Shown: positions 1 to 13,442 of the stretch, piece after piece | How the letters are laid out: the number at the start of each line of letters is the position of its first letter | Numbering within the stretch: position 1 is the stretch's first letter | IMG/VR virus record: IMGVR_UViG_3300027142_000035 | Coordinates: 1 to 30,586 of that record | DNA: 30,586 bases | Source: a virus | Reading direction: 5' to 3' (one strand) | Position numbers and translations under genes: made by a program | The notes under the pieces: model-generated | Told to the model about the DNA's origin: nothing | Databases searched by the model: none | Seen by the model: the letters and a program-made list of their open reading frames with translations, nothing else

Positions 1-39
1 CCCTTCTTCCCGCCGTTCTTCCCGCCCTATTTCCCACCA
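1..39 (+). repeat. PP[FY]F-coding 12-base repeat (inverted relative to 12909-13115)
   Basis: Roughly three units of a 12-base CCN-CCN-TWY-TTY pattern, continuing beyond the left edge. Its sense orientation is the + strand, whereas the related array at 12909-13115 is read from the - strand. The two therefore form a diverged inverted-repeat pair around the oxygenase island. Confidence 0.75.
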
Positions 40-252
40 TGTTTTGCCGGTTCATGCGGTTCATGTTCCCCGTCATCATCAAATGGAACGGGAGCGCTTA
101 TCGGGTGCCAAATGCCGGGCTGTCAGACGGGTTGCCGTTACTACACAACCACAACAACATGTGGTTGTACGGGGTGCACCAATGCCTGTGGTGTTCCTGG
201 GTCGGTATCCTCTGGATGTTCAACATCCAATACTGGTTCGGTGTGTGTATAG
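1..252 (+). CDS. PP[FY]F-repeat, cysteine-rich protein, C-terminal part (5' cut by window)
   Basis: The frame beginning at base 1 is open to a TAG at 250-252 and encodes 83 residues with no start codon in view, so this is the 3' end of a larger gene. It opens with PFFPPFFPPYFPP, the four-residue PP[FY]F repeat also found at the end of the gene at 12906-13442. About 70 residues follow, rich in Gly, Ser and Thr, with 12 cysteines (residues 14, 19, 22, 36, 41, 45, 54, 56, 59, 63, 73 and 82), often as G-C or C-x-C. There is no recognisable enzyme motif. The composition suggests an extended structural or adhesive protein that could be disulfide-linked or metal-bound. ATGs inside this stretch in other frames are overlapping artefacts. 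I infer, without proof, that the repeat is a substrate for the neighbouring oxygenases. The reading frame is convincing; the function is unknown. Confidence 0.72.
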   Translation, partial: PFFPPFFPPYFPPCFAGSCGSCSPSSSNGTGALIGCQMPGCQTGCRYYTTTTTCGCTGCTNACGVPGSVSSGCSTSNTGSVCV

Positions 253-302
253 CCAATAACCGTATATGCTATTGTGACTATTAACAGAGAAAAGGACACC
301 AC

Positions 303-560
303 ATGTCAGACGAAACCCCAACACCACCAGTATTCACGGCACCAGTAAACCATACACATTACGCTTTCGTCGTAGATGGTGATTTGGGCTGGCTTCACTC
401 AATAGACAACAACCTTGAAGGTGCAAACGCTGTATTCAAGTCTGCCCCAACGATCGTTGAAATTTCAGAAGAACAGTTCCTCAATTTCCTAAACGGAGCG
501 ATCCCGCCGTACGGCAATTACAAGTGGGACGGCACGAACTGGTCGCTCGCCACAGAATAA
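303..560 (+). CDS. Small virion-associated-like hypothetical protein
   Basis: An 85-residue protein with an ATG at 303 preceded by a good AAAGGA ribosome binding site at about 290-295. It is acidic, with no signal peptide or membrane segment. The N-terminus is proline-rich (TPTPPVFTAPV), and the C-terminus ends in YKWDGTNWSL, a W-D-G-T-x-W turn often seen in small phage tail-associated proteins. Its stop codon shares one base with the next start, so the two genes are probably translationally coupled. It lies between the PP[FY]F protein and the first oxygenases, which suggests a part in the same structure or its modification. I do not recognise a family. An accessory structural protein is a guess. 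Confidence 0.6.
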   Translation: MSDETPTPPVFTAPVNHTHYAFVVDGDLGWLHSIDNNLEGANAVFKSAPTIVEISEEQFLNFLNGAIPPYGNYKWDGTNWSLATE

Positions 561-787
561 TGAGCGCATGGCAGGAATATAAAAAGAAAATGGGAACAAC
601 AACCCCATTAACCGCGCTCAACCCTGATAACTACAATTTTGACGAAACCGTATCCAACAAGCGATACGAGATATGTGAATCATGTCCTAGGTTTTTCAAA
701 CTGACCAAACAATGCAAAGAGTGTGGTTGCTTCATGGCTATAAAGACAAAACTCCGAGAGGCAGAGTGTCCTTTAGGCAAGTGGTAA
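560..787 (+). CDS. Small Cys-rich zinc-ribbon-like protein (DUF6171-like)
   Basis: A 75-residue protein. I chose the ATG at 560, which overlaps the TAA of the upstream gene (TAATG), over an upstream start at 524 that would run deep into that gene. It has six cysteines: C39 and C42 (C-x2-C), C52, C55 and C57 (C-x2-C-x-C) and C70, in a context close to CPRFFKLTKQCKECGCFM and ending near CPLGKW. This matches the pattern of small phage proteins called DUF6171, whose function is unknown; the cysteines could bind zinc. The basic stretch between the Cys clusters would allow nucleic-acid or protein binding. It precedes the first oxygenase gene by 18 bases in the same direction. Confidence 0.7.
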   Translation: MSAWQEYKKKMGTTTPLTALNPDNYNFDETVSNKRYEICESCPRFFKLTKQCKECGCFMAIKTKLREAECPLGKW

Positions 788-805
788 TTGGGGTAGTGTT
801 TATAC

Positions 806-1507
806 ATGGCTTACCTCGGGCATGAACACATTTATACTTTTGATGATTTCATCACAGAGGAAGACGCCTCAGAATTAATCAGATTCCACGATGACGAGTT
901 TCAGTGGGATAGCAGTATGTCTTGGGTTGCCCCATTGGAACAATTCAATGTTGGATCCGTTGTCCTCACAGGCGCATATGGGGAAGAGGTAAAAAGAAGG
1001 CAAAGCGAATGGAGCCCCACTTCAACGCACCCATTAAGCGCTGTTTATGGCGAAAAAATCATGAAGATAGCCTCACAGACATTTGGTAGAACTTTAGTTC
1101 ACAGGCTTATCCCTTACTACAAGAAATTTCTAGTTGGTTCAGATCATGATCCACATGCTGACAGTGAAGCGATGGACAAAGGCGTTGTTGACTTCATGCC
1201 ACGGTATAGTCCAAGCGAATTCAATACACCTGTCCTCATTGAGGTTGCCGCAAACCTCTATCTCAATGATGAATTTGAAGGTGGAGAACTTTATTTCCCC
1301 ACTCGCGATTTGGTGATTAAACCAAAAGCAAGACAACTGATTCTTTTCCCCGGCGGGCACGAGTACATTCACGGAGTCAAAACAATAACTAGTGGAGATA
1401 GATGTGTTTTGTTCAGTCCGCTAACAAGCCCGCAACGCCTACTTCTACACATGCACGCCTACAACACATGGCAGGAACTAGAGAAGGTAAAAAATGAGCG
1501 ACAATGA
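806..1507 (+). CDS. 2OG-Fe(II) oxygenase, prolyl-4-hydroxylase-like (oxygenase 1)
   Basis: A 233-residue protein with the double-stranded beta-helix signature of the P4H-like branch of 2OG/Fe(II) dioxygenases. Iron ligands are H117-x-D119 (in PHADSE) and H189, and the 2OG-anchoring residue is R199, ten residues after the distal His (HGVKTITSGDR). Between them is YLNDEFEGGELYFP, the typical GGE-L-x-FP core strand, followed by KPKARQLILFPGG. The expected reaction is hydroxylation of a peptidyl side chain using 2OG and O2 and releasing succinate and CO2; the substrate is unknown. The N-terminal ~100 residues are the usual helical/strand cap (FDDFITEEDASELI). The ATG at 806 has only a weak upstream G-run as ribosome binding site. 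The end overlaps the next oxygenase by 14 bases. Cytoplasmic, with no signal peptide. Confidence 0.9.
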   Translation: MAYLGHEHIYTFDDFITEEDASELIRFHDDEFQWDSSMSWVAPLEQFNVGSVVLTGAYGEEVKRRQSEWSPTSTHPLSAVYGEKIMKIASQTFGRTLVHRLIPYYKKFLVGSDHDPHADSEAMDKGVVDFMPRYSPSEFNTPVLIEVAANLYLNDEFEGGELYFPTRDLVIKPKARQLILFPGGHEYIHGVKTITSGDRCVLFSPLTSPQRLLLHMHAYNTWQELEKVKNERQ

Positions 1508-2555
1508 TTTGTTTAACGGCACCACGCCCGAAATAGACAAGCCAACTATCAAAGAGATCATGGATACACCCATGGAAAGTTTGGGTGGAGGGGTCGTACG
1601 ATTCCCCGGCGTAGTTAAAATTGACCGAGAAAAAGTAAGCAAATGGTGCGACGCCAATGCAAAAAAAGCCCACGAGCAAAGATGGACTTACCACAAAGAC
1701 AACGATGGCGTCACCTATGCGACCAACGAAGATGGGAACAAATTTTCCCTTGAACAGATTGAAGAAGTTCCTGTTCGTCTTTTAAACCCAGTAGAACAAG
1801 ACACAGATCCTGAAATGGTAGAAATTTTCAAGCATTGGGAAGACGAAATTTATAAATGCCTAATCAAATACATTGATGAATACCCAATGGTTCTTGGAAC
1901 CTTGTGGTGGAGAAGCCGTGGTCACTTAATGCGATACGACGAAGGAGACTACCTAGGTATTCACAATGACAACGATTCAAACTTCCGCTCCACCAAAGGC
2001 AAGCGATATGTCCCAACTGGTCAGATGCAGATGCGTCAAGTTGTTGCAATCATGCTGTACCCAAATGACTGCGTTAATACAGAAGAAGAGTACGACGGAA
2101 CGAACTATGTTGGCGGGAACTTATTCTTCCCATACTTGGGTATAGAAACCACACCAAAACAGGGAGATATTTTTATCTTCCCAACAAACTATATGGCTAC
2201 CCATGGTGTGAAAACAGTTACCAAGGGGCACAGATACGGATATCTAGAGTTTTGGTCTCAAGGTAATTCCGACGAAAGTGTTTTGATTAGCGTTGCAGAG
2301 CCTGCTGATTGTGATGGTTGGTGCCGACCGCATTGGATTGACAGCCTGTACGACGACTACAACAAGTATTGTTTGTACTCAGAGTATTTAAATCCTGAGA
2401 AAGTTGATCGCGCAAACCCTGTTTATCAGAACCGAACCCTTGAAGGCAACGAGGGGCAAATGCAACCGTATTCTCATCACAGGGTTTTTGAAGATAACAA
2501 AGACAGAGGGAAAATAAATCCAGATGTTCTCATGCCCAACATTCAAGAAAGTTGA
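1494..2555 (+). CDS. 2OG-Fe(II) oxygenase, P4H-like, 'LGGG' subfamily (oxygenase 2)
   Basis: A 353-residue protein and the longest oxygenase of the set. The N-terminal motif ESLGGGVVRFPGVV is shared with the products at 3305, 4084 and 4972 and marks a paralogous subfamily. The core has WWRSRGHLMRYDEGDYLGIH leading into H157-x-D159 (HNDND), an insertion of about 25 residues, then YPNDC...VGGNLFFPYLG. The distal His is H237 and the 2OG-binding Arg is R247 (HGVKTVTKGHR). A further ~100 residues rich in Tyr, Asp and Asn follow the catalytic core, with no motif I recognise. The ATG at 1494 has an AGAAGG ribosome binding site and overlaps oxygenase 1 by 14 bases. A role in peptidyl hydroxylation is inferred from the family; the substrate is unknown. 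Confidence 0.9.
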   Translation: MSDNDLFNGTTPEIDKPTIKEIMDTPMESLGGGVVRFPGVVKIDREKVSKWCDANAKKAHEQRWTYHKDNDGVTYATNEDGNKFSLEQIEEVPVRLLNPVEQDTDPEMVEIFKHWEDEIYKCLIKYIDEYPMVLGTLWWRSRGHLMRYDEGDYLGIHNDNDSNFRSTKGKRYVPTGQMQMRQVVAIMLYPNDCVNTEEEYDGTNYVGGNLFFPYLGIETTPKQGDIFIFPTNYMATHGVKTVTKGHRYGYLEFWSQGNSDESVLISVAEPADCDGWCRPHWIDSLYDDYNKYCLYSEYLNPEKVDRANPVYQNRTLEGNEGQMQPYSHHRVFEDNKDRGKINPDVLMPNIQES

Positions 2556-3312
2556 GTTCATTGATCTATTAGTGAATGCCTCGTATTATGGGCATCTTCT
2601 CAATGTTTATGGCGCTGTAGGTTTTAAGAAAATAAATGTTACTCCAGCACAACAGCAAGAACTATGTAGGCTTCTAGGTGATTTTGTTAATTGGATACCG
2701 AATTCCAAACATCCGACTCCAACAGTTGAACAGTACATCCAAACTTTTGAATTAGAACTCCAAAGTAAAAAGCCTAGACAAAAATTCTTGACAGAATTAA
2801 GCATGGACATAACAAGCCAGCCACCACCCGTCGGTTCAATCCTGAACAACACTGTTTTTCAGTGCAGTAAAAAATCGGGATCAACAGTCCTTATTGATAT
2901 GAGAAAAGTGTTTAGCCTCCTCAGGGAAGAGTGGCAAGATTTTATTAGTAAAATTGCTTGGCTTGATTCGGAAACAGGGATTTCGCGTCTGATGGTTGAA
3001 AAACATAGGAGCACTAATCAAAAGATACTAATATTTTCTACAGAATTTGCATTAGAATTAGAACAAGATTCAAGGTATAGATTTTTCTCAGACGGTGAAG
3101 AAATTAATCAGGAACAGAAAAAAATATTAAAAGAAATATTTGAAGAAATACTTGACATTATCCATATATGCAATCTGAACATCCTAGAAGAATGGAAATG
3201 GGACGAAAAAGACTTACTGATAATTGATGACAGTTGCATGATGCAAGCAACAAAAGGTGGATTCAAGTATGGCTCACGAATAATGATCCACCAAAAATGT
3301 TCGGCTAACTAG
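2524..3312 (+). CDS. TauD/TfdA-like dioxygenase homologue with degenerate metal site
   Basis: A 262-residue protein that aligns by pattern with the TauD/TfdA branch of 2OG dioxygenases, not the P4H branch. ELSMDITSQPPPVGSIL (residues 91-107) corresponds to the WHTDxSxxxxPPxGSxL segment, SGSTVLIDM to GGDTLFADM, and LLIIDDSCMMQA (231-242) to LLIWDNRRVLHRA. At the metal-binding positions the H-x-D has become S93-x-D95 and the distal His has become Q241; R252 (GSRIMIH) is kept. Loss of both His ligands predicts no normal Fe(II)-dependent chemistry, so it may be a pseudoenzyme or binding partner. The ATG at 2524 lies inside the previous gene (32-base overlap). The 3' end overlaps the convergent gene at 3305 by 8 bases. 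The family is fairly clear; the function is not. Confidence 0.72.
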   Translation: MFSCPTFKKVEFIDLLVNASYYGHLLNVYGAVGFKKINVTPAQQQELCRLLGDFVNWIPNSKHPTPTVEQYIQTFELELQSKKPRQKFLTELSMDITSQPPPVGSILNNTVFQCSKKSGSTVLIDMRKVFSLLREEWQDFISKIAWLDSETGISRLMVEKHRSTNQKILIFSTEFALELEQDSRYRFFSDGEEINQEQKKILKEIFEEILDIIHICNLNILEEWKWDEKDLLIIDDSCMMQATKGGFKYGSRIMIHQKCSAN

Positions 3313-4084
3313 TTATATCACCAACATAAACTTGTTTCTGATAGGAATATCCGACATCTTCGCGGAGTTTTTTCATCCAAGAGTATTGTGCATCCATTGA
3401 AGTTGATTGCGAATTGATATCAAGATGGGAAGTCAAACCATGAGCGAACCAAGACAGGTAAGCGAACCTGACACCACTCTCTAATGGTGCAACAGAATGA
3501 CACCCAATAAAAGAAGATGGGTAGATGAGGATGCTTCCTTTTGGGGGCTTTATATTTATTCCCCAAGGCGCAAAACCTATTTCTCCTCCTTCGTAATCAT
3601 CGTTTAATACGAGGCTAGAAGTAAGCGTATTGTGAATAGGGAATCTATTTACCTCAACAAAACTGTTCGGCTCATACGCAATGGCGCAGTCAGAATGCGA
3701 TCCAATATACATACCTTTGTGATACTCAATAAAATACCCACGAGTTCTCCAAGTAACCGTTTCCATCACAACAGGAAAAGATTTACAATATTCAACAAGG
3801 CATTTGTAGATTGAGTCCTCCAATAATTGTACAAAGGCTCTATCGTCATCCGAAATTCCTTGATACAGAGTGTTGGTATGGCGAATCGGTAGAGAAGAAA
3901 GATGGTCGTCTTGGAATTCGTACCCACCATTGTTTTTGACTGTTTCCTCATCTTTTGCAATACCGTAGACAGTCGGAGGGGAGTTATCGTACATTCGCTT
4001 CATAAAAGAAACAAAGAACTCAGAGTCCACATTGACAGCATCTTCAAAAAGAATTATTCCGCTACCCAGATGTCTGGCTTTCAT
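3305..4084 (-). CDS. 2OG-Fe(II) oxygenase, P4H-like, 'LGGG' subfamily (oxygenase 3)
   Basis: A 259-residue protein at the distal end of the long - strand run. The N-terminus RHLGSGIILFEDAVNVD is the subfamily signature in slightly altered form (LGSG). WRTRGYFIEYHKGMYIGSH leads into the metal motif H130-x-D132. NDDYEGGEIGF follows, then the distal H196 and R206 (CHSVAPLESGVRF). All the residues needed for Fe(II) and 2OG binding are present. Its ATG at 4084 shares one base with the stop of the upstream gene (TAATG), so translation is probably coupled. It converges with the TauD-like gene, sharing 8 bases at the two stop codons with no terminator between. The substrate is unknown. Confidence 0.9.
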   Translation of the reverse strand: MKARHLGSGIILFEDAVNVDSEFFVSFMKRMYDNSPPTVYGIAKDEETVKNNGGYEFQDDHLSSLPIRHTNTLYQGISDDDRAFVQLLEDSIYKCLVEYCKSFPVVMETVTWRTRGYFIEYHKGMYIGSHSDCAIAYEPNSFVEVNRFPIHNTLTSSLVLNDDYEGGEIGFAPWGINIKPPKGSILIYPSSFIGCHSVAPLESGVRFAYLSWFAHGLTSHLDINSQSTSMDAQYSWMKKLREDVGYSYQKQVYVGDITS

Positions 4085-4971
4085 TAGTTCATTCGCTCTG
4101 TCAAAGTAAAACCAAGATGTTCTGTATCTTTGACATTGGCAGTCAAATAGTTGCGGAAGTCTCTCCTTAGATTTGGCATGTACACGTTTGTTGATCGTTG
4201 CGCCTCTTCGGGGTCAGTTGTAGGGTCAACAATTGTTTCGTTGAGGTCAGGGTTTGGTGACCCATGTGAATACCAGCCAAGGTAACTGTAACGAGTTCCG
4301 CCAGTAACTGGTTTCACTTCGTGTGAGGCAATAAAGTTTGAAGGGAACATCAGAATGTCTCCCTTGCGAGGAGAGTAAGTTATTCCGAGATAGTCAAAAA
4401 CATGTTCTCCTCCACTGAATGCATCCTCTCCAACTTGATCTATACCGACGCAATCGTTGACATACATAACTACTGAAAGAGTATTTTTTGTTGGTAACTG
4501 CTCTTTAGGGTGGTCTATCCCGTATAGATAGTCCACACTTGAATCAGAGTGTGTCCCCAAGAATAATCCACCCTTTTGTGTTGAGTAAGAAACAATATGC
4601 CCCTTAACCTTCCACCAAATATTCTTGTATGCGAGCGGATGAATGGTCATATAGCCAAGCAAACAATTATCTCGGGCAGATTCTAAAAAATTCAATAGTT
4701 CAATTACTTCAGGTCGCTTATCTTGATGAGTGTTGGCTGCCCGCCGTGGCATCATATCAACACCATCTTTTCTGAAAATATACCCACTTCGGTTTATGTA
4801 ACAGGGTTCGCCTGTTTCAGGGTTTATCCCTTCTGTGTACATAGATTCACGTTCAGAAGCAACGAATTCTTCAAATAGATCGCGCGTTGAGCCCCAATCT
4901 ACCGTGAAGGCGTTTTTGAAGAGTATTACTCCACCACCCAATTCCTCTGGCTCTATCCCGTTGAATTTCAT
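4084..4971 (-). CDS. 2OG-Fe(II) oxygenase, P4H-like, 'LGGG' subfamily (oxygenase 4)
   Basis: A 295-residue protein. The N-terminus EELGGGVILFKNAFTVD is nearly the same as in oxygenases 2 and 5. WWKVKGHIVSYS and LFLGTH lead into H141-x-D143 (HSDSSVDY), then an insertion, YVNDC...FSGGEHVFDYLG, and the distal H217 with R227 (HEVKPVTGGTRYSYLGW). The catalytic set is complete. The C-terminal ~55 residues (STNVYMPNLRRDFRNYL) resemble in style the C-terminal tails of the sister proteins. The ATG at 4971 follows the stop of the gene at 4972 with no gap. Expected to hydroxylate a protein or peptide side chain; the target cannot be read from sequence. Confidence 0.9.
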   Translation of the reverse strand: MKFNGIEPEELGGGVILFKNAFTVDWGSTRDLFEEFVASERESMYTEGINPETGEPCYINRSGYIFRKDGVDMMPRRAANTHQDKRPEVIELLNFLESARDNCLLGYMTIHPLAYKNIWWKVKGHIVSYSTQKGGLFLGTHSDSSVDYLYGIDHPKEQLPTKNTLSVVMYVNDCVGIDQVGEDAFSGGEHVFDYLGITYSPRKGDILMFPSNFIASHEVKPVTGGTRYSYLGWYSHGSPNPDLNETIVDPTTDPEEAQRSTNVYMPNLRRDFRNYLTANVKDTEHLGFTLTERMN

Positions 4972-5832
4972 TTAAATGTGGTCTTTCGCTCTGCTTTTGA
5001 ATAGTGTGAGTTTCTCTGGAACCCCATTAGGGTACTTGCGATAAATATAGTCTTCATAATCGTCAATGAGAGTTTCAAGCCACCACTGACCACCAGAATG
5101 GTATTCGCCGTCAGACACAATAGGGTTAACCCCATGTTCAGGTGCTGGTGTGCCCTGAGCGAACCACAAAAGATATGAATACCTTGAACCCTTGGTTATT
5201 TCATGTATCTCATGGGCTCCAAGATAGTTTGCTGGCATCAAAACGATAGAGCCCGTATGAGGGACAATGTCAATATCAAAGTAAGGAATACTCATGTGAC
5301 CACCGCTGAATCCATATTCACATTGACTTCCGTCATCGGTGCACGAATTGAAATAAACAAGCGCAGAAACAACGTTCCGAGTCGCATGATCAAGTTGAGG
5401 AATAGCGCCATACCTGTAATTCACATCATTATCAGAATGAAAGCCAAGGCTGGCACCCTCGTCGTAGCAAAGAACATGACCACCAGATTTCCACCACAAA
5501 CACTGCAAAATCGCAGGGAACATCTCTATATATTCAAGAAGTGCTTCGTAAACACGATCATCACATTCTTTAAAGAATGGGTGAGTTAGGTTTTGAATTC
5601 TTACTGGTGAACGCTTGTATGCGTCAAGACCATAAATAAACCCACCCTTATTGATGGTGTGCAAGGGTTCACCGTTATCGTCATAGACAATAGTGAAATT
5701 CTCTTGACGCCACTTTTCTTTTTCCTGTTCAAGATATGAAATCAAGTCACCCTGTGGGACGGTTATCGCATTCTCAAAAAGAACAGTTCCGCCACCAAGA
5801 TGTCTTGGCTGAAGCGGATTTTTTTCATTCAC
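4972..5832 (-). CDS. 2OG-Fe(II) oxygenase, P4H-like, 'LGGG' subfamily (oxygenase 5)
   Basis: A protein of about 286 residues. No ATG fits the start. I chose the GTG at 5832 because an AGAGG ribosome binding site lies a few bases upstream; a TTG one codon earlier is possible. The N-terminus RHLGGGTVLFENAITVP, then WWKSGGHVLCYDEGASLGFH and the metal pair H132-x-D134 (HSDNDVNYRYG), YFNSC...FSGGHMSIPY, H207 and R217 (HEIHEITKGSRYSYLLWF), mark it as a close paralogue of oxygenases 2 to 4. GGH replaces the usual GGE in the core strand. It overlaps the peroxidase-like gene upstream by 8 bases and abuts the next gene directly. The C-terminal extension contains a YDDYEDYIYRKYP-type tyrosine-rich segment like that of oxygenase 2. 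Confidence 0.88.
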   Translation of the reverse strand: MNEKNPLQPRHLGGGTVLFENAITVPQGDLISYLEQEKEKWRQENFTIVYDDNGEPLHTINKGGFIYGLDAYKRSPVRIQNLTHPFFKECDDRVYEALLEYIEMFPAILQCLWWKSGGHVLCYDEGASLGFHSDNDVNYRYGAIPQLDHATRNVVSALVYFNSCTDDGSQCEYGFSGGHMSIPYFDIDIVPHTGSIVLMPANYLGAHEIHEITKGSRYSYLLWFAQGTPAPEHGVNPIVSDGEYHSGGQWWLETLIDDYEDYIYRKYPNGVPEKLTLFKSRAKDHI

Positions 5833-6442
5833 CAAAAACCTCTTTCAATGCTTCCAAAATAGTCTCCGTGCTTTGATCTGTCAGCCTCTCCGCGGCAAGA
5901 GGGAACTCACCCCAACTGAATCTGCGAATAACCCTACCAGAAGAATCAACTAGAAATTTTTCATAGTTATGAGGGACACGATGAAGAGCCTGATTCGCAA
6001 GATTATGACCATGTGACGCTTCAGCAGAGTTGTCCGCTCTGGTATCACTAGAAATTCTTTTTGCTGTTCCTTTTAGAAATGAAAATAAAGGATGCTCGTT
6101 CTCTCCGTTGACTTCAACTTTTTCTGTGATTGGAAAAGTTACCCAAGGGTACGCCTCTTTTACAAATGAGGATATTTCTTCGCTTGTTGCTGGATCCTGT
6201 GATCCGAATTGATTGCATGGAACACCGACTACCGAAAAATCCTCGTACATATCGTTGATTGTTTGCAATTCCCATAACTGCCGCGCGGTTCTCGTGTATG
6301 ACCATATTGCACTTATTTTAGGTAAGTACTTTGTTTTAGTTGCAATATTGACTATCATGCATGTCTTCCCGCGAATACTGGATAGCACATCATCTGTTCC
6401 ACCATCAGCAGAGCCAATTTTTATATCAAAAACAGAGTTCAT
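5825..6442 (-). CDS. Glutathione peroxidase-like protein lacking the catalytic Cys/Sec
   Basis: A 205-residue protein with the thioredoxin-like fold pattern of glutathione peroxidases: IVNIATK, GVPCNQFGSQDP, TFPITEKVEVNGENEHPLF and HNYEKFLVDSSG align with NVASKCG, GFPCNQFGxQEP, FPxFxKxxVNGxxxHPL and WNFEKFLVDxxG. The peroxidatic Cys/Sec is Thr here (T37, in NIATKTKYL), and the tetrad Trp is His (H158), while the Gln (Q82) and Asn (N159) remain. About ten extra residues follow the altered active-site loop. Cys remain at 28 and 76. It may be a non-peroxidase member, a chaperone-like thioredoxin fold, or use C76 differently. I start it at the ATG at 6442, which overlaps the upstream stop as ATGA; a TTG 12 bases earlier is less likely. 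It sits between oxygenases in the same run. Confidence 0.8.
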   Translation of the reverse strand: MNSVFDIKIGSADGGTDDVLSSIRGKTCMIVNIATKTKYLPKISAIWSYTRTARQLWELQTINDMYEDFSVVGVPCNQFGSQDPATSEEISSFVKEAYPWVTFPITEKVEVNGENEHPLFSFLKGTAKRISSDTRADNSAEASHGHNLANQALHRVPHNYEKFLVDSSGRVIRRFSWGEFPLAAERLTDQSTETILEALKEVFGE

Positions 6443-7032
6443 TGTAGACACCAAAACTGTGTCATAAAAAATCTGACACCAGATTCAACAGGTGTCACAT
6501 AGTGAGTGTAGATTTCCGAAGAAGGAAACAAAGCAAGCATTCCCCGTTTTGGCGAAACGCTTACGCCAAGATTGGGAAAATTTAATACCCCACCAGTAAA
6601 TCCACTATTCAGATATAAAACAGAACTCACGTCTCTACTTTCATATCCTGCGGGTGTAGGGAGATCAGGTTTTAGACCGTCATAATGAGGCTTCAACATC
6701 TCACCTTCTTGGTATCCGCAAAAATCATAGCGATTTTCCAATCCGACCTTGCGCCCCCAGATCAGTTCAATATGTTCATGAATTTTGTTAACAATGGGGT
6801 TGAAAAATTCGTCCATTTGACCATTATTCGCAATTACCAAAGATGGCTGTTTGTATTCATCACCATTATCATCTTTTGTTGACGAGTAAAAATTGACCCC
6901 ATCGTCCGTCAGTTCAGTTAAAACTTTCTTTGGATGTGCGATCAGCCTTTGTTCAATAATCTCTGCTGTTTCAACATCAATGAAATCGTCCAGAATGTGG
7001 ATTCCGCCAGTTGTTGGATGGTCAATGATCAT
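6439..7032 (-). CDS. 2OG-Fe(II) oxygenase, P4H-like, compact form (oxygenase 6)
   Basis: A 197-residue protein and the shortest oxygenase of the island, close to a minimal P4H-like catalytic domain. The N-terminus GIHILDDFIDVETAEIIEQ is the usual start of such domains. The metal motif is H116-x-D118 (KPHYDG), followed by YLNSGFTGGVLNFPNLG, KRGMLALFPSS, distal H177 and R187 (HYVTPVESGVRFF). GGV replaces GGE in the core strand, as in many members. The ATG at 7032 overlaps the stop of the upstream gene as ATGA, and its own stop overlaps the next start in the same way, so it is part of a translationally coupled chain. The substrate is unknown. Confidence 0.9.
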   Translation of the reverse strand: MIIDHPTTGGIHILDDFIDVETAEIIEQRLIAHPKKVLTELTDDGVNFYSSTKDDNGDEYKQPSLVIANNGQMDEFFNPIVNKIHEHIELIWGRKVGLENRYDFCGYQEGEMLKPHYDGLKPDLPTPAGYESRDVSSVLYLNSGFTGGVLNFPNLGVSVSPKRGMLALFPSSEIYTHYVTPVESGVRFFMTQFWCLQ

Positions 7033-7997
7033 ACTGAAATAACTCCCTTGACATTAAGCGTAGAGTAATCGTTGATCTTCATATAACCGCTCACATTCCC
7101 ATTATCTTCAACAAGGTTAAGGGAAACTTTAGCAATCATCGGTGTGGAGACCTGATATTCGGAATAGAAACAACCTTCACTAAGGGAGTATGTGATATCC
7201 GTTGAATACTTACCTTGCTCAATTTTTGCCTTTGAGTCTGTATCAAAAACTATAGATATGTTTTCGTTACCTAAAGGTGTTAAAACGGTCAAGCGGTACG
7301 ACTTCCCAAATAATGGAGAACCAGTTTCGTAGTGGAAACCATTATTGAACAAACCTTGTGGAGGGCATTCTTTACTCCAAACATTAACAATCAACGACTG
7401 TTTAACCCCAGAAGGCGCTGGTGTCGTTCCATGAAGTTGATGACCTGCATCAAATATGATTAAGCGATTACTCTTATATTTGATTCTTTCACGAGTTTCT
7501 ATTGGGCTATTTTTCAAAATCGGATCAATGAAACTTTTCTCCAAAGAACCGACTGAATCACGAACCAATAAGATTGGATAAAGTTCAAAAAAACCTGCTT
7601 CTTCTCCGTTATCCACTCCCCACCAAACAGCACCGAGAGTTGGTGTTCCTAAAGATTTATCGTGAACGTAGCGAGCAGTGTCGGCATCAATATGTGGTTG
7701 TATGTACTGACCCGGCTCATATGTTCTTGTCCAATACTCAAATCCGACCACTTCATCAATGTTTATTTTTCCCTCAAATATCTTTCGGATCAATTTCTTT
7801 TTGAGGGTATCCATTGGGCTTTTCCACCAACCATCCCAAAACATGTATGGAGAAAAAACCGAACCATTAGGGTCGTTGTACATATTCGGCACAGATGCGA
7901 CCTTCTCCCCATCACCCATGGATACAGGGAAAAATGAGTCATCATCAAATATTGCGCTCAGGGTTACTTCGTCAAAATAGTTGTCTTGAATAATCAT
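7029..7997 (-). CDS. 2OG-Fe(II) oxygenase with C-terminal beta-rich domain (oxygenase 7)
   Basis: A 322-residue protein from the ATG at 7997, which has the best ribosome binding site of the run (AAGGAG, placed over the last codons of the upstream gene). Residues 1-210 carry a 2OG/Fe(II) core: YEPGQYIQPHIDAD gives H102-x-D104, and LIIFDAGHQLHGTTPAPSGVK gives H189 with K199 ten residues on; H186 is an alternative ligand. Lysine instead of Arg as the 2OG anchor is typical of true prolyl-4-hydroxylases. The core strand is FFELYP instead of GGELYFP, so it is divergent. Residues ~215-322 form a separate beta-rich region (SYRLTVLTPLGNENISIVFD...) with no recognised family, perhaps a binding module. 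Confidence 0.82.
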   Translation of the reverse strand: MIIQDNYFDEVTLSAIFDDDSFFPVSMGDGEKVASVPNMYNDPNGSVFSPYMFWDGWWKSPMDTLKKKLIRKIFEGKINIDEVVGFEYWTRTYEPGQYIQPHIDADTARYVHDKSLGTPTLGAVWWGVDNGEEAGFFELYPILLVRDSVGSLEKSFIDPILKNSPIETRERIKYKSNRLIIFDAGHQLHGTTPAPSGVKQSLIVNVWSKECPPQGLFNNGFHYETGSPLFGKSYRLTVLTPLGNENISIVFDTDSKAKIEQGKYSTDITYSLSEGCFYSEYQVSTPMIAKVSLNLVEDNGNVSGYMKINDYSTLNVKGVISV

Positions 7998-7998
7998 A

Positions 7999-8748
7999 TT
8001 ACTCCTTAACAACTATTGTAAGTCCATAAAACAAAGGTATATGGTAGACATTACAGAAACTATTGTGTTTTAGTTCATGATGCCATTCCCACGCAGGACT
8101 TACTATCGTTTTATTGTGATACAGAAATGAGGAGTCCGAACTGTTTTGGATCAGCATCACCCCACCAGAATTGAGCCTGTCAACATAAGTTGATGCACCC
8201 AAAAACGGATTCTCCATATCCGATGACCAACCAAGAATCAAGTCATATTTAGTGTCTTCATCCAAATCTAATTCCTGTCGTGTCACCATTTTATACGGCA
8301 CATTTGGAAGAATATTTGAAGTCCCTTTAGCGAATCGTTCATAATACAAAAGTCTCTTTGAGTTAAGTATTGAAAGTTCTGCACCATACTTATTCACGAG
8401 CGTGTCATACTTGAATCTGTCCAAATATCCTGAAATTGACAGAACTGTATTCATTCTTTTCACATCAAAAATTGCAAAAACTAGTGCTAAAGAAAGCCAC
8501 TGCGGACTTGAGTATCCTTTATGAAGTTTGGCGTGAGGCTGATGAATTACGTAATCAAAATCACTAGCCCCACCAGTAGCGATATTGCGACGATCAACGC
8601 CAACGGTATTGAACATATACTCGCCAATTAAAACAGACTGTGCGCAATCTTCATCTATGCATTGGTCGGCAAAATCAGAAAGCGGTACGTCTGTAAAACT
8701 GCTCAAATCAAACAGTTGATCTAACTCGTATCTTTTGTTATCAGACAT
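7999..8748 (-). CDS. Possible SAM-dependent methyltransferase-like (Rossmann) protein
   Basis: A 249-residue protein. The in-frame ATG at 8748 is chosen over an upstream TTG; it overlaps the preceding gene by 8 bases. Residues 99-112 (MNTVLSISGYLDRF), 168-181 (YDLILGWSSDMENP) and 192-203 (LNSGGVMLIQNS) have the order and spacing of motif I, an acidic strand and the post-III strand of class I methyltransferases. The glycine-rich loop (GxGxG) is poorly kept, so cofactor binding is uncertain. A segment rich in His and Gly (YVIHQPHAKLHKGYSS, 66-81) precedes the putative fold. It could methylate a protein or sugar, or be a related nucleotide-binding fold without activity. It is the only non-oxygenase enzyme-like gene between oxygenase 7 and the small-gene block. 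Confidence 0.45.
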   Translation of the reverse strand: MSDNKRYELDQLFDLSSFTDVPLSDFADQCIDEDCAQSVLIGEYMFNTVGVDRRNIATGGASDFDYVIHQPHAKLHKGYSSPQWLSLALVFAIFDVKRMNTVLSISGYLDRFKYDTLVNKYGAELSILNSKRLLYYERFAKGTSNILPNVPYKMVTRQELDLDEDTKYDLILGWSSDMENPFLGASTYVDRLNSGGVMLIQNSSDSSFLYHNKTIVSPAWEWHHELKHNSFCNVYHIPLFYGLTIVVKE

Positions 8749-9043
8749 TTGATAACTCGTAGGATGAAACTTGAAGATCAAAGTATGAGCGACGAAGAAC
8801 CCGTGCTAAAAGTATGTTCTGACTCTTTAGATATTCATACACGGCATAGTTTTCTGTGTGCATATTTATAAGATGCGAAGGCTTATATGCATAAATCGTG
8901 CGAATACGCTCCATTGCCTCATCAAAAGAAACAGTTTTGATTTCTGATTGTTCATAACCTAAAGTCAAAAGCACGCAAGCAATTGTTGTGGAAGCATAGC
9001 CAAAATCAGAGGTGGCGTCATAGGTTTCATCCTTTGTTTTCAT
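8741..9043 (-). CDS. Hypothetical protein
   Basis: A 100-residue protein, mostly helical by composition, beginning at the ATG at 9043 (17-base overlap with the upstream gene) and ending 8 bases inside the methyltransferase-like gene. The middle reads FDEAMERIRTIYAYKPSHL, followed by YAVYEYLKSQNILLARVL. No cysteines beyond C23, no membrane segment and no recognised domain. Its overlap with the next gene suggests the two products are made together, perhaps as partners. Function unknown. Confidence 0.55.
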   Translation of the reverse strand: MKTKDETYDATSDFGYASTTIACVLLTLGYEQSEIKTVSFDEAMERIRTIYAYKPSHLINMHTENYAVYEYLKSQNILLARVLRRSYFDLQVSSYELSNV

Positions 9044-9218
9044 CAGTGCCGTCCTCTACCGTGTAGTCAATAGTATGACAATTAGTTACCCATTCACCGT
9101 TGGACAGCCATCTTCCTGTTTCGCTCTCAAAATAAATTACGCCGTCATCAAACTTTGGGAGGTCAGTATCTGACTCCCCAAATTTTGTTGGATCTTCTAC
9201 TTGCTCGTTCGGATCCAT
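9027..9218 (-). CDS. Small acidic hypothetical protein
   Basis: A 63-residue, strongly acidic protein (ATG at 9218) with many Asp and Glu and the segment GVIYFESETGRWLSNGEWV near its middle, which resembles short beta-hairpin motifs of phage fibre-associated proteins. It has one cysteine and no membrane segment. It lies 4 bases after the gene at 9223-9432 and overlaps the next by 17 bases. Function unknown; a small binding or adaptor protein is possible. Confidence 0.5.
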   Translation of the reverse strand: MDPNEQVEDPTKFGESDTDLPKFDDGVIYFESETGRWLSNGEWVTNCHTIDYTVEDGTDENKG

Positions 9219-9222
9219 GACA

Positions 9223-9432
9223 TTACGACAACTTCTTTAATGCAAAAATTTCGCTTTTCAAACATTCCCAACTTGTATGAAGTGGGTCTTGAAAATTATA
9301 AGGATTAGCCGAAGTTTCGTTAATAGAAGACGGGTCAATATCCATCATTTTAGAAAGAATAAATATTGATTCCTCTAAAAAAACCTTAGCCTTAGATCTT
9401 GCCTTCTCGTAATCAAAAACGCCTATGTCCAT
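9223..9432 (-). CDS. Small helical hypothetical protein
   Basis: A 69-residue protein from the ATG at 9432, predicted helical (DYEKARSKAKVFLEESIFILSKMM), ending in a basic tail (FALKKLS). It has no recognised family. It starts 11 bases after the stop of the DUF6065-like gene and belongs to the same run. Small helical proteins of this kind are common in phage operons, but nothing visible assigns a role. Confidence 0.5.
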   Translation of the reverse strand: MDIGVFDYEKARSKAKVFLEESIFILSKMMDIDPSSINETSANPYNFQDPLHTSWECLKSEIFALKKLS

Positions 9433-9443
9433 AGGCTTCCATG

Positions 9444-10163
9444 CTAGTTCATCGGTTCATTCAGTTTTGGCAACCCCTGAAATGACGGTCCGATCTTATT
9501 CCCGTCGGCATCCAAACCAGTTTTTATCCCTTTTGTCCAAGTCCATGGTTTTTCTTGGTTATTTTTTGATTTCATGGCACCATACTTGGATCGTTGTTCA
9601 ACAAGTTCTTTGTCATCCCACAGGCTTGACACTTCAAAAGAAGTTTCAGAAAGCACCCTATTGTCAAATAGGGTAAAAAACATGAATGGCATACCAGCCT
9701 CAAACACGACTGGTTCACCAATTCTGGTGATCATCCAGTTCATTTGGAACTCATCCGGCCACCAAGAACTTGGAATGATTGCAGATAGTGGTTTAGCACC
9801 ATCAACCATATAGTTTGGCGACCCACCAATCCAAATGTCGTAGTTTTCTTCTGTGCGAAAAGCGTATTGTGTTGAAAAGGAGATCATGCCAATAATGCTT
9901 GAATGAACAATGAGTTTGTGTGCGCCAAGCGCAGTCTGTATCTTTTCACCAGAGATGATGGTTGGTGGCACATTGCCTCCATTCCACTCAACGACCACAT
10001 CCTGCTCTAGTTGCAATTCCCACCCATAAACATTCGCATAGGTCATTGGTAGGCATTGGTAAGCATGCTTGTTATAGGTGTTGTCCATCCACTCCCGTTT
10101 GAGCCGAGACTGAACTATTTTGGGCGTAGTTGTCTGTGTTTTCAGTAATTGTATTTTTGACAT
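9444..10163 (-). CDS. DUF6065-like protein
   Basis: A 239-residue protein with the pattern I associate with DUF6065: CLPMTYANVYGWEL (37-50), VVEWNGG (57-63), WIGGSPNYMVDGAKPL (111-126) and WWPDEFQMNWMITR (134-147), then a GEPVVFEAGMPFMF strand. The function of the family is unknown. The fold looks beta-rich, with many aromatic residues that could form a ligand pocket. The last ~45 residues are hydrophilic and probably unstructured. The ATG at 10163 shares one base with the TAA of oxygenase 8 (TAATG), so translation is likely coupled. I recall such proteins occurring near 2OG oxygenases in other phages, which would point to a shared pathway, but that is not verified here. Confidence 0.75.
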   Translation of the reverse strand: MSKIQLLKTQTTTPKIVQSRLKREWMDNTYNKHAYQCLPMTYANVYGWELQLEQDVVVEWNGGNVPPTIISGEKIQTALGAHKLIVHSSIIGMISFSTQYAFRTEENYDIWIGGSPNYMVDGAKPLSAIIPSSWWPDEFQMNWMITRIGEPVVFEAGMPFMFFTLFDNRVLSETSFEVSSLWDDKELVEQRSKYGAMKSKNNQEKPWTWTKGIKTGLDADGNKIGPSFQGLPKLNEPMN

Positions 10164-10822
10164 TAATAATTTTTTTCTTGACTGTAACTTGCTTGACGGG
10201 TTAGGTCATGGTTGTTGTCGTTGTAATCAAACATTGTCACAGCAGAGTACTTCGTCCCTGAAAGAACTGGCTTAGCCGCATGGGCATATATGTATGTTGA
10301 TGGGAAAAGAACAATATCTCCGTATTCGGGCTTGAAGGACAAATCCAAATAGGGGAACCATAATTCCCCACCCTCGTAGTCATCATTCAAATACATACAT
10401 GATGAAGTAGTGCATGTATAAGAAAAACCATGATCTGTATGGACTTGAAAGTGTTGATTCGTTCCATACCTAATGTAGTTAATCGCCTCCATGTAGGCGA
10501 GATTAATGTTGTAGCGCTTCTCGTAGTCCGCGATGCACTCTTTCAGCGGGTTTTTAGTGTCATTGTAAATGTTTATCAATTCAGAGAATTGGGGAGGGCA
10601 GTGTTTGATATGGAGTTCACCCATCTTGCAATCAACGCAATCTCTGTACTCGGGCATTTTTTGGTTATAACCAACTAGCGCATCCATCCACATGTATGGC
10701 GGTGTCTTGCTTTCCCCAATTGTTTCTTCAAGACGATCTACAAGTCTTAACGACTTTGGTAAGGCGTTTTGATATAACAGGATCCCTAGACGTGGGTCAC
10801 TTAAATGAACAGGATTTTTCAT
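10163..10822 (-). CDS. 2OG-Fe(II) oxygenase, P4H-like with Lys 2OG anchor (oxygenase 8)
   Basis: A 219-residue protein with a clean P4H-like core: QHFQVHTDHGFSY gives H128-x-D130, then YLNDDYEGGELWFPYLDL, KPEYGDIVLFPS, distal H181 and K191 (HAAKPVLSGTKYSAV). Lysine at the 2OG C5-carboxylate position, where most neighbours have Arg, is the state found in collagen-type prolyl-4-hydroxylases, so of all members this looks most like a classical peptidyl-proline hydroxylase. The N-terminal part has a Cys pair (C62, C65 in DCVDC) and C75. The ATG at 10822 lies 4 bases after the stop of oxygenase 9. Confidence 0.92.
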   Translation of the reverse strand: MKNPVHLSDPRLGILLYQNALPKSLRLVDRLEETIGESKTPPYMWMDALVGYNQKMPEYRDCVDCKMGELHIKHCPPQFSELINIYNDTKNPLKECIADYEKRYNINLAYMEAINYIRYGTNQHFQVHTDHGFSYTCTTSSCMYLNDDYEGGELWFPYLDLSFKPEYGDIVLFPSTYIYAHAAKPVLSGTKYSAVTMFDYNDNNHDLTRQASYSQEKNY

Positions 10823-10826
10823 ATGC

Positions 10827-11474
10827 TCAGTCTACCTCCCATACTTGTTGCCATGAGTATCTTTCGCCAGAAGTAACACTGGTCACTTCATGACATGAAT
10901 TCTCGTCGGCAATGTTATTAAGTAAAACCATCGTATTGGCAAGTGGCTTCAGCGTGATACCGAGAAACGGAGCATGGAATTCGCCCCCTTCAAAATCATC
11001 ATTTATGTAGTAAACCGTAGAAAATGAAGCAGATACATAATCTGTTCCTATGCTCTTTTCATAAGTATCAGAGTGCATGCGCAGACCGCGCCCATCTGAA
11101 TACTTCAATAAAAAGTTATTGTATATTCCCCTAGGATGAATATCAAATGTTGACATAATAGCCTTCATTGACAAAATCTCAATTTTAAGAATAACTTTTT
11201 TTATTTGTTCATCAATCGGTTTATTGCGAAAATATGACCAGTCCATGACCGTGGGTGGGTAATCAAGATCGGTGTTATCTGTTTGAGATGGAACGTATGG
11301 TCTGAGATAAGAAACAGATGCGTCACCGCTGTGTGCAACATGTTTGAACCGCACAGCAGAAAGTTCGTCCGTTGAGGGCTGAAAATCTACGCCGCTTTTA
11401 ACATATTCAAGTAGCAACTTATGATCGTCGGCGTTTAAGAAATCTTTAAAAACATGAAAATTAGTGTTTGGCAT
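10827..11474 (-). CDS. 2OG-Fe(II) oxygenase, P4H-like (oxygenase 9; paralogue of 10)
   Basis: A 215-residue protein. I begin it at the ATG at 11474, 4 bases after the upstream stop; extending to 11564 would overlap the upstream gene by more than 80 bases and add an unrelated N-terminus. HVFKDFLNADDHKLLLEYV opens the domain. RGLRMHSDTYEK gives H134-x-D136, then YYINDDFEGGEFHAPFLG, and H195 with R205 (CHEVTSVTSGERYSW). All catalytic residues are present. VRFKHVAHSGDASVSYLRPYV matches RFHTVKHSKDESIEYLRSEV in oxygenase 10, showing a gene duplication. The substrate is unknown; the pair could act on related sites. Confidence 0.9.
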   Translation of the reverse strand: MPNTNFHVFKDFLNADDHKLLLEYVKSGVDFQPSTDELSAVRFKHVAHSGDASVSYLRPYVPSQTDNTDLDYPPTVMDWSYFRNKPIDEQIKKVILKIEILSMKAIMSTFDIHPRGIYNNFLLKYSDGRGLRMHSDTYEKSIGTDYVSASFSTVYYINDDFEGGEFHAPFLGITLKPLANTMVLLNNIADENSCHEVTSVTSGERYSWQQVWEVD

Positions 11475-11478
11475 TGAA

Positions 11479-12225
11479 TTAACTTTCGTCCAAAAGCCAA
11501 AAATGTTGGCGAACATAGCGCACACCTTTTGTGACGCTATTGACGCGATGAGCCATATCCTCATCCCATGGCGTGCAATTTAGGATTAGGGAATTTGGTT
11601 TTGGCTTAAAACTTAGCCCAATATACGGAGTGCAATGCTCTCCACCCTCATAGTCATCATTTAGGTAATAGATTGAAGCAAAATGGCATGGACGATGCGC
11701 AGTTGGTGAACTCTCATTAAAATCATAGCCATCTGTGTGCATTCTCATTGAGCGACTGTTTTCAATTTTTGTGAATACTGGCGGAAAAGTATTTTGTGCT
11801 TTTTGCCCAAACAAAGAAAAAATTTGTTCATTTATTTGAGAATCAAGTTTTGTGATTATGTCTAAGATCTTTTGTTCAATAGGTTGATGTAAGACCAGAT
11901 TCCAGTCTTCATAGTTTTCCAAGCCCTCGGGGAAAGGTTCCGCCATCTGCCCACTTTTTATTTTTTCAAAAGTTTCATCATCAAAAACTTCTGAACGCAA
12001 ATATTCAATAGATTCATCTTTGCTGTGCTTTACTGTATGAAATCTTGTCGCTGTAGGAGGTCTTTTATCCATTGATTCAGTGAATCCCCAAGTAAGTGGA
12101 TCCGTATTTCTTACATACCAATCCAATGTTGACCATGAATCGCCATCTAGAAAATCTTGATAAATAGAAATACTCGGGTATACGCTTTTCGGCGGGTTGG
12201 ACGGAGTCGGCATAGTTTTAAACAT
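11479..12225 (-). CDS. 2OG-Fe(II) oxygenase, P4H-like (oxygenase 10; paralogue of 9)
   Basis: A 248-residue protein using the ATG at 12225, one base after the upstream stop; the ATG at 12234 is an equally in-frame alternative that overlaps the upstream gene by 8 bases. The core is MRMHTDGYDF with H163-x-D165, YYLNDDYEGGEHCTPYIGL, KPKPNSLILN, and H226 with R236 (AHRVNSVTKGVRYV). It is 33 residues longer than its paralogue at 10827, mainly through an acidic insertion near residues 80-105 (VFDDETFEKIKSGQMAEPFP). The shared N-terminal segment, HSK/HSG-D-x-S and YLR elements tie it to oxygenase 9. The catalytic set is complete; the substrate is unknown. Confidence 0.9.
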   Translation of the reverse strand: MFKTMPTPSNPPKSVYPSISIYQDFLDGDSWSTLDWYVRNTDPLTWGFTESMDKRPPTATRFHTVKHSKDESIEYLRSEVFDDETFEKIKSGQMAEPFPEGLENYEDWNLVLHQPIEQKILDIITKLDSQINEQIFSLFGQKAQNTFPPVFTKIENSRSMRMHTDGYDFNESSPTAHRPCHFASIYYLNDDYEGGEHCTPYIGLSFKPKPNSLILNCTPWDEDMAHRVNSVTKGVRYVRQHFWLLDES

Positions 12226-12226
12226 G

Positions 12227-12874
12227 TCACTCATCCACAACGGTATAGAAAGCAGGAGTCGTATATCTTTCTCCACTAATCACTGGTTTAACCCCGTGCA
12301 TGTAATAGAAGTCTCCGGGGTGAAGTACTGCTAAACCCGGTTTGGGTTTTACGATGATGTCGTGCTGTGGGTAGTAAAGTTCCCCACCTTCAAAGTCGTC
12401 GTTGTAATAAAAAAGCGAATTTATGTCATATGTTGGGAACGGATTTGGGGATCCATCGTTTAATTGTTTATCGGCGTGGGGTTGTTGCTCTATCCCTCCA
12501 AACCAACGGATCAGGCATGGCGGACGGGAACTTAATTTTACATGAAAAATATCTTCCATGGTTTTAGCCATTTTGGCTATGTAGTGATCAATTAGATCGT
12601 AGATACCCGAATCAAGGCGCTTTAGTATCGTCGCCGTGCATTGACGGTCATTCCAATAGGACGCATCATAGGTGCAGACACCCTCTTCGTTGTAGGTGTT
12701 TTCTAGTTGATCGTTATGCCACTCTTTGATGTTTCGCGCAAAACCAATGATTTTTTTGACATCGTCAGAATCAATGAAGTTTTCTATGACATGAATGTTT
12801 TCTTTGCCTCGCCCAAAAGCGCCGGGTTTTACAGCCCAAGGACCATCATCAAAGTTGTGTTGTGTTTGTTCCAC
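12227..12874 (-). CDS. 2OG-Fe(II) oxygenase, P4H-like (oxygenase 11), first gene after the repeat protein
   Basis: A 215-residue protein starting at a GTG at 12874, with AGGA seven bases upstream as ribosome binding site; no ATG fits. IHVIENFIDSDDVKKIIGF starts the domain. QPHADKQ gives H133-x-D135, YYNDDFEGGELYYPQHDIIV is the core strand, and H193 with R203 (HGVKPVISGERYTT) completes the set. It is similar in size and motif context to oxygenase 1 (HADxE/Q, GGELY[FY]P, HGVK) although that gene is on the other strand. It is the first oxygenase downstream of the FN3/PP[YF]F repeat gene, 31 bases away. A short hairpin (12883-12896) lies just upstream and may affect its expression. Confidence 0.91.
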   Translation of the reverse strand: MEQTQHNFDDGPWAVKPGAFGRGKENIHVIENFIDSDDVKKIIGFARNIKEWHNDQLENTYNEEGVCTYDASYWNDRQCTATILKRLDSGIYDLIDHYIAKMAKTMEDIFHVKLSSRPPCLIRWFGGIEQQPHADKQLNDGSPNPFPTYDINSLFYYNDDFEGGELYYPQHDIIVKPKPGLAVLHPGDFYYMHGVKPVISGERYTTPAFYTVVDE

Positions 12875-12882
12875 ACAAAAAT

Positions 12883-12896
12883 CCTAGCACTCTAGG
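12883..12896 (-). terminator. Short hairpin with T-run overlapping the GTG gene's ribosome binding site
   Basis: On the - strand a CCTAG / CTAGG stem with an AGTG loop is followed at once by ATTTTTG. The 3' arm contains the AGG of the ribosome binding site for the GTG start at 12874. The stem is only 5 bp, so it may be a weak terminator, an attenuator or a translational control element between the tail-fibre genes and the oxygenase run. Confidence 0.3.
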
Positions 12897-12905
12897 GTGT
12901 GATAC

Positions 12906-13442
12906 TTATTTGAATGCTGGTGGGAAGAACGGAGGGAAAAATGGTGGGAAAAATGGCGGGAAGAATGGTGGGAAGAATGGTGGGAAAAATGGTGGGAAGA
13001 ACGGTGGGAAGAACGGAGGGAAGTATGGAGGGAAGTATGGCGGAAAAAACGGCGGAAAGAACGGCGGGAAATAAGGTGGGAAATAAGGTGGGAAATAAGG
13101 TGGGAAATAAGGTGGCGTTACTGCTGCGCTCGCTGCTGAAGCAGGACTAACAGGACCGCTACTGCTCGTAGCAGTCACAGTAAACGTATAAGCAGTATTT
13201 GATGTTAAACCAGTGACAGTCAAAGGTGAAGATGCACCCGTTGCAACATGACCACCGCTTGATGTTACCGTGTAGGAAGAAATAGTACCAGTTTTTCCAA
13301 GGTAGGCAGGAGCAGTGAACGGAACAGTAACGGTTTGCGCGGTATTACCTGCCGTATTGTTGACAACAGCATTTACGGTTGGCGTACCAACTGTCGGTGC
13401 TGCTGGTTGTTTACCGCCAGAATCTTTTCCTTTTGTTGCCAT
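12906..13442 (-). CDS. FN3-domain protein with C-terminal PP[YF]F repeat tail
   Basis: A 178-residue protein (ATG at 13442, one base after the fibre gene's stop). Residues ~17-108 look like a fibronectin type III domain (PFTAPAYLGKTGTISSYTV, then SPLTVTGLTSNTAYTFTVTA and SSSGPVSPASAASAAV), a module common on virion surfaces. From residue 110 to the end there are 16 units of PP[YF]F, then PPAFK: four PPYF, two PPFF, two PPYF, eight PPFF. Alternating Pro-Pro and aromatic pairs would favour an extended polyproline-type rod with an aromatic face. No signal peptide. It lies last in the tail-fibre cluster and directly before the oxygenase run, which makes it the prime candidate substrate. It may be an adhesin tip or decoration protein. 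The - strand frame is preferred over the complementary NGGK frame because it has a start coupled to the fibre gene and an FN3 domain. Confidence 0.85.
   Translation of the reverse strand: MATKGKDSGGKQPAAPTVGTPTVNAVVNNTAGNTAQTVTVPFTAPAYLGKTGTISSYTVTSSGGHVATGASSPLTVTGLTSNTAYTFTVTATSSSGPVSPASAASAAVTPPYFPPYFPPYFPPYFPPFFPPFFPPYFPPYFPPFFPPFFPPFFPPFFPPFFPPFFPPFFPPFFPPAFK
12909..13115 (-). repeat. Array of 12-base PP[YF]F-coding repeats
   Basis: About 17 tandem 12-base units without spacers. The four units at 13068-13115 are identical in DNA (CCACCTTATTTC on the - strand), while the others vary at wobble positions but keep the protein pattern. This suggests recent expansion at one end and purifying selection over the rest. 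The G-rich + strand has regularly spaced GGG runs. Confidence 0.9.

Follow-up and report, generated by a model that had tools for sequence, protein, structure and literature searches.

Viral genes for prolyl 4-hydroxylases (P4H) and other 2-oxoglutarate (2OG) oxygenases have repeatedly been listed as auxiliary metabolic genes, the substrate of which is not known. The P4H of the chlorella virus PBCV-1 (vP4H or vCPH, PDB 5c5t) goes back to Eriksson et al. (1999, as cited in PMC9301287) and viral use of prolyl 4-hydroxylase was described as one that 'remains cryptic' (PMC9301287); for the 2OG oxygenases of cyanophages a function in DNA repair was guessed (PMC3037559). A literature search for work linking phage P4H to tails found none, with subscription papers being mostly uncovered. 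Here, the uncultured virus fragment IMGVR_UViG_3300027142_000035 is described, the entire IMG/VR fragment of which (30,586 bases, hereafter the window) was analysed and found to carry eleven P4H-like genes together with two genes for proteins with aromatic-proline PP[FY]F repeats. REP2 (12906-13442, minus strand), which combines an FN3 domain with 16 PP[FY]F units, is the putative terminal tail adhesin and the putative substrate. Directly downstream of it resides g21 (12227-12874, minus strand), one of two core orthologues among the P4H-like genes, the other being g18 (10163-10822, minus strand), which is followed by the DUF6065 gene g17 (9444-10163, minus strand), a second gene that is a signature of the cassette. 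Such a long P4H-like row directly behind an aromatic-proline tail gene is found in many uncultured water phages, and it is suggested, with a probability of roughly 0.6, that the cassette serves to hydroxylate the phage's own terminal adhesin at its aromatic-proline tail. The enzymes belong to a known family; for the cassette with its link to an aromatic-proline adhesin, no earlier description could be found.

A sequence-only reading of the window had proposed a phage system modifying its own adhesin and had named a co-occurrence search in related phages as a check. Searching with a pattern of three PP[FY]F units identified at least 120 viral stretches, and among the matches listed 45 of 50 large records contain PF13640 genes, many of them with 5-13 copies. 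Controls were 50 records picked by the tail-fibre motif GDGSTAWN and 44 records picked by a random 14-mer, of which 4/50 and 1/44 possess PF13640 (Fisher p = 1e-17 and 6e-20, respectively, for records that are related and habitats that are unmatched). Likewise, 306 P4H were counted in 1.05 Mb of local DNA around PP[FY]F genes as compared to 13 in 1.03 Mb around the tail motif and 0 in ~1.1 Mb of random viral DNA, which excludes chance as the origin of P4H clustering. When clustered at 80% DNA identity, the repeat loci among the matches listed (120) fall into 62-97 groups, 43-69 of which have P4H in the locus. Fifty control records were in turn scanned with the pattern P[FY]FPP, three or more matches being taken as positive, whereby G206 (L229) joined the scan because local analysis had already shown P4H there. 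The repeat was found in four of the five P4H-positive controls (G078, G090, G100 and G206) versus 0/45 negatives (p 2e-5). In the fifth positive record, G097, the cassette is preceded by the gene for an FN3 protein with PPGFF repeats (L213), an after-the-fact observation, since this variant was looked for in records with P4H. The reverse test started from records chosen solely by the enzyme motif NDD[FY]EGGE and counted at least two P[FY]FPP matches as repeat, and it revealed the repeat in 10/19 records with five or more P4H versus 1/31 with fewer (p 8e-5). Together with the adjacency described below, these tests agree and speak strongly for co-occurrence. Of the modification proposal itself, the linkage of P4H rows to the repeat thus stood, while substrate, oxidised residues and virion location stay inferred. 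Outside of viral records the three-unit pattern is rare, with 11 stretches only among the collected genomes of 84,980 bacterial and archaeal species; contigs with several matches are L513, L517 (Gammaproteobacteria metagenome-assembled genome (MAG) SP183) and L510 (Verrucomicrobiales MAG), the latter carrying a g18-type P4H and DUF6065, and such contigs may be phage contigs binned into MAGs. Among 50,697 phage records neither the repeat protein nor, on the nucleotide level, the island found a match, and no isolate was found.

The linkage was observed to be directional, with a P4H as the immediate downstream neighbour of the repeat gene in 52/111 cases and as the immediate upstream neighbour in 0/112. 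Relatives of the g18 type were found in 121 loci and those of the g21 type in 108 loci, and the core order of REP, g18-type P4H with DUF6065 and g21-type P4H recurs in divergent phages within two architectures. The first one (order A) comprises fibre, REP, the pair of g18-type gene and DUF6065 twice, a g21-type gene and several oxygenases; the second one (order B), which is that of the window, comprises fibre, REP, g21, further genes, g18, DUF6065, further genes and then g12, glutathione peroxidase, g09, g08 and g07. When all frames were considered, a repeat gene was found upstream of the g18-type gene in 36 of the 38 repeat-picked loci whose upstream DNA extends over 3 kb or more. This one-sidedness of the adjacency, which is downstream only, is not what would be expected if the region downstream of the tail module were an accessory-gene hot spot of aquatic phages, the oxygenases of which act on host proteins or metabolites and are linked to the repeat without any substrate relation. 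Such a hot spot would account for the glutathione peroxidase, TauD, DUF6065 and unknown open reading frames (ORFs) of the island, none of which has an obvious role in protein hydroxylation, for cassettes without repeat and repeats without P4H, and for the tail-fibre families common to these phages. However, control phages with similar tail-fibre motifs but without the repeat almost never have P4H, and the association holds over three repeat types and two gene orders, for which reason the hot spot was judged an unlikely explanation, albeit one to be reckoned with.

Turning to the candidate substrate, its repeat unit was identified as PP-[FYHW]-F, with position 4 being Phe in all 1194 units counted and position 3 being F in 924, Y in 258, H in 42 and W in 9 cases. 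Differences between adjacent repeat units amount to 62/268/1446 for codon positions 1/2/3, and this third-position excess documents that selection acts on the protein and maintains its aromatic-proline pattern. A collagen-type Gly-X-Y repeat was not found in the REP units. As to its architecture, REP2 matches a phage tail adhesin: it possesses FN3, stands at the end of the tail-fibre module and lies directly behind the tail fibre encoded at 13444-16038 (minus strand), and in relatives, too, the repeat gene is placed directly behind the tail fibre. REP1 (1-252, plus strand) is the second putative repeat adhesin, of which the contig end leaves the 3' part only, i.e., PP[FY]F repeats followed by a Cys-rich tail; in the close relative L490 it is complete and consists of FN3, PP[FY]F repeats and the Cys-rich tail, with no further P4H within 5 kb beyond the REP1 counterpart. 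Some repeat proteins end in a C-terminal Hint/intein-like domain (L505 14574-15887, L500 10841-12202, L216 4051-5271 and L213 7219-8532), a continuation which was also identified in L014, L058 and L083 and which gave a weak Pfam Intein_splicing match in L505. This domain suggests that the adhesin undergoes self-cleavage or ligation behind its repeat. On the antisense strand, the repeat gives rise to open GGKN-repeat frames (window 12862-13074, plus strand), which are able to mask short repeat genes from ORF callers.

The sequence-only reading had counted eleven P4H-like genes with an intact motif, and the alignment agrees, as HxD, the distal His and a subsequent G-x-[R/K] are invariant in 11/11. 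A GGEL-type core had been assigned to them as well, which holds with variations as an EGGE-like core in 10/11 but not for g12 (7029-8012), where the core is lacking. The latter is the weakest of the eleven (Pfam 18.8 bits, below cut-off), the remaining ten having a clear E-value match to Pfam (PF13640) or PHROG 61, whereby g20 (11479-12276) escapes Pfam and is detected with PHROG 61 and with a locally built profile. In the alignment, the other P4H-like proteins of the window share 13-29% identity with g18, thus characterizing the window oxygenases as old paralogues. For g18, the only oxygenase modelled, AlphaFold2 predicts a P4H fold (pLDDT 90) with TM-scores of 0.6-0.7 to solved prolyl hydroxylases, the closest folds being PHD2 with HIF peptide, the Chlamydomonas P4H (CrP4H) with (Ser-Pro)5, the Pseudomonas P4H (PPHD) with EF-Tu and vCPH of chlorella virus; a sequence comparison places the Bacillus anthracis P4H nearest among solved proteins (E 8e-7). 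With protein prolyl hydroxylases as the closest solved structures of g18, both by sequence and by fold, small molecules, glycans or nucleobases are very improbable as substrates of the oxygenases, DNA hypermodification being one example of such a role. The versatility of the 2OG fold would permit such an activity, and both the names DNA endonuclease (V) and ferrochelatase among PHROGs of related families and a weakly dUTPase-like DUF6065 model could be taken to point there; those names span mixed families, though, and are unsupported here, while the resemblance to dUTPase is slight (E 4e-4, TM 0.34 on query). As annotations of the window proteins, the two PHROG names were consequently rejected as labels of mixed families, and a dUTPase-like DUF6065 was rejected likewise, its best fold match being too weak for a function to be assigned.

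Considering hydroxylation of the adhesin, the following course of events was suggested. The last tail gene would yield an FN3 stalk ending in a PP[FY]F run (in other phages mixed PFF/PPFF or PPGFF), and the row behind it, which has the same direction, would be read along with the tail genes at a late stage of infection. Enzymes of the g21 and g18 type, with DUF6065, would then oxidise the repeat, probably at its prolines and possibly at Phe or Tyr, whereby DUF6065 might serve as accessory factor of the g18-type enzyme and glutathione peroxidase may remove peroxide and protect the chemistry. By analogy with hydroxylated proline-rich proteins, hydroxylation would set stiffness or stickiness of the adhesin tip, and the benefit may be sought in rigidity, adhesion or host recognition. 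Site or register specificity as the reason for the many enzymes is a guess. The earlier idea of several enzymes serving different sites received a hint only, namely that the cassette type covaries with the repeat type, which shared descent could give just as well: window-type cassettes go along with strict tetrads in which Tyr is more frequent (on average 0.21 of aromatic F+Y), while cassettes with the DUF6065 pair go along with mixed PFF/PPFF, Tyr-poor repeats (0.05), a difference (p 3e-5) that is uncorrected for descent. Tentatively, and at somewhat less than even odds, a widespread and undescribed tail modification was postulated, in which divergent oxygenase arrays together with DUF6065 oxidise a Pro/Phe/Tyr adhesin tail with enzyme sets tuned to repeat registers.

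Several points weigh against hydroxylation of the adhesin by its neighbouring cassette. Five repeat records are devoid of PF13640 (G017, G021, G050, G054 and G058), one of them (G054) being cut at the repeat gene itself. Among enzyme-picked g18-type loci with at least 3 kb upstream, only 4/8 show a repeat; the exceptions L403, L463 and L465 have gene sets unlike the window cassette, and the exception L468 starts within an apparent Hint tail, as if the contig end had truncated a repeat protein there. No aromatic-proline repeat was found in the parts read of the multi-P4H records G164, G172, G174 and G199, the second of which carries a WhiB-like gene. Kinship among the phages is a weakness common to all tests, the covariation of cassette and repeat type included. 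Moreover, the system is known from genes and models, and the need for so many enzymes on a four-residue unit is unexplained. Oxygenases without any PP[YF]F protein, which the sequence-only reading had given as its refutation, do occur: in phages with one or few P4H (cyanophage-like and others) and in a minority of the multi-P4H records. The single-cell virus MH319759 has one P4H, which is g18-like, and lacks an aromatic-proline repeat as far as it was read. In the multi-P4H records G158, G170 and G191, (PPGFF[AS])n proteins stand directly ahead of the cassette, and the multi-P4H fragments G163 and G196 begin within the cassette. The window-type cassette of G174 (L496 1-1338), which lacks a PP[FY]F protein, resides directly behind a fibre with collagen-like GPT repeats and thereby invites the explanation that other tail proteins (fibres, collagen-like stretches) are modified, with the repeat protein being a mere neighbour. 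This was considered improbable, since those 4/50 tail-motif controls which do have P4H are the ones with the aromatic-proline repeat or its variant. Within G164 (L494 2273-3910), which represents a different phage kind, a flavin tryptophan halogenase-like protein was observed beside a row of short P4H genes.

Within the window, the right two thirds are occupied by a minus-strand tail module and the left 13.4 kb by the oxygenase island. The tail module comprises the tape measure (27609-30545, minus strand), a baseplate J-like protein (23640-25049, minus strand) with best matches of ~30% to Gordonia and Arthrobacter phages, and tail fibres, likewise on the minus strand, reaching down to 13444. 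This baseplate similarity, together with WhiB being present in 13/50 repeat records, suggests that the hosts of part of the group are probably actinobacteria. The island is indeed flanked by the only two PP[FY]F-repeat proteins of the window, as had been read earlier. However, instead of one continuous row there are two converging rows, each headed by a repeat gene, which meet at 3305-3312. The plus-strand row behind REP1 consists of a small DUF6171 protein (524-787), the P4H-like 2OG-Fe(II) oxygenase g04 (806-1507), the P4H-like g05 (1494-2555) and the TauD-like g06 (2524-3312). Between 12906 and 3305, the genes on the minus strand form one row with overlaps or gaps of no more than 31 bases, in which g21 is followed by the P4H-like genes g20 (PHROG 61, not Pfam) and g19 (10827-11564), the true starts of which are probably further in, and, behind g18 and DUF6065, by g13 (7999-8781; no assigned family, recurrent in relatives), the divergent g12 with its intact motif, the P4H-like g11 (6439-7032), the glutathione peroxidase g10 (5825-6454; PF00255, recurrent in such cassettes) and the P4H-like g09 (4972-5835), g08 (4084-4971) and g07 (3305-4084). 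The island being 'packed' with oxygenases is accordingly right for eleven P4H-like genes, with DUF6171, glutathione peroxidase, DUF6065 and several small or unknown ORFs being present in addition.

Two of these residents were characterized further. The degenerate twelfth oxygenase of another branch was confirmed as TauD-like (g06; PF02668, Pfam E 1e-9), with its iron triad lost, as Ser and Gln occupy the two His positions. TauD-like relatives in other cassettes read DWHLEH...HSV and those of the window clade ELSMD/EWSMD...MMQAT/MLQAT; in L026, L066 and L068 the iron triad is intact. As close relatives keep the His-less state, the window protein may be a conserved pseudo-enzyme rather than a product of decay. 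Relatives of DUF6065 fall into two groups, which hhalign relates to each other with a probability of 98%, and accompany P4H in 106/107 loci; the AlphaFold2 model reaches pLDDT 87. In L115 (4727-6013) a single ORF encodes a fusion of DUF6065 and P4H domains, which points to a joint function. Relatives with ~28% identity occur in haloarchaeal tailed viruses, e.g., L519 (HSTV-2) 3848-4717, where the neighbours are genes for thymidylate synthase and DNA polymerase instead of oxygenases. No paper with the name DUF6065 was found in a literature search that left subscription papers mostly uncovered.

As the candidate substrate is conserved and adjacent, the question of what viral P4H act on becomes directly testable with these phages. 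If hydroxylation of the adhesin holds true, phages oxidise their own attachment proteins with large enzyme sets, and hydroxylated proteins of structural or adhesive function would have a counterpart in viruses. In comparison with known systems, PBCV-1 vCPH is alike in being a virus-encoded P4H with the virus's own proline-rich proteins as proposed target and in its fold (TM 0.60-0.72), but it is a single enzyme of a eukaryotic virus, lacking a PP[FY]F adhesin, DUF6065 and an array. The Bacillus anthracis P4H (PDB 3itq/5hv0) and Pseudomonas PPHD (4iw3), which are bacterial peptidyl prolyl hydroxylases, provide the closest solved sequences and folds, yet both are single chromosomal enzymes with other substrates (the PDB entries show EF-Tu). 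Cyanophage 2OG-Fe(II) oxygenases (PMC3037559; PHROG 61) represent the same broad family in phages with 1-5 copies per genome; they differ in being mostly scattered short enzymes, with which no repeat adhesin was found here. Finally, the P4H systems of collagen, extensin and algal walls act on a repetitive proline-rich structural protein and hence offer a functional analogy, whereas the phage repeat has neither GXY nor Ser-Pro, its unit is PP-aromatic-F and many enzymes stand against one candidate substrate.

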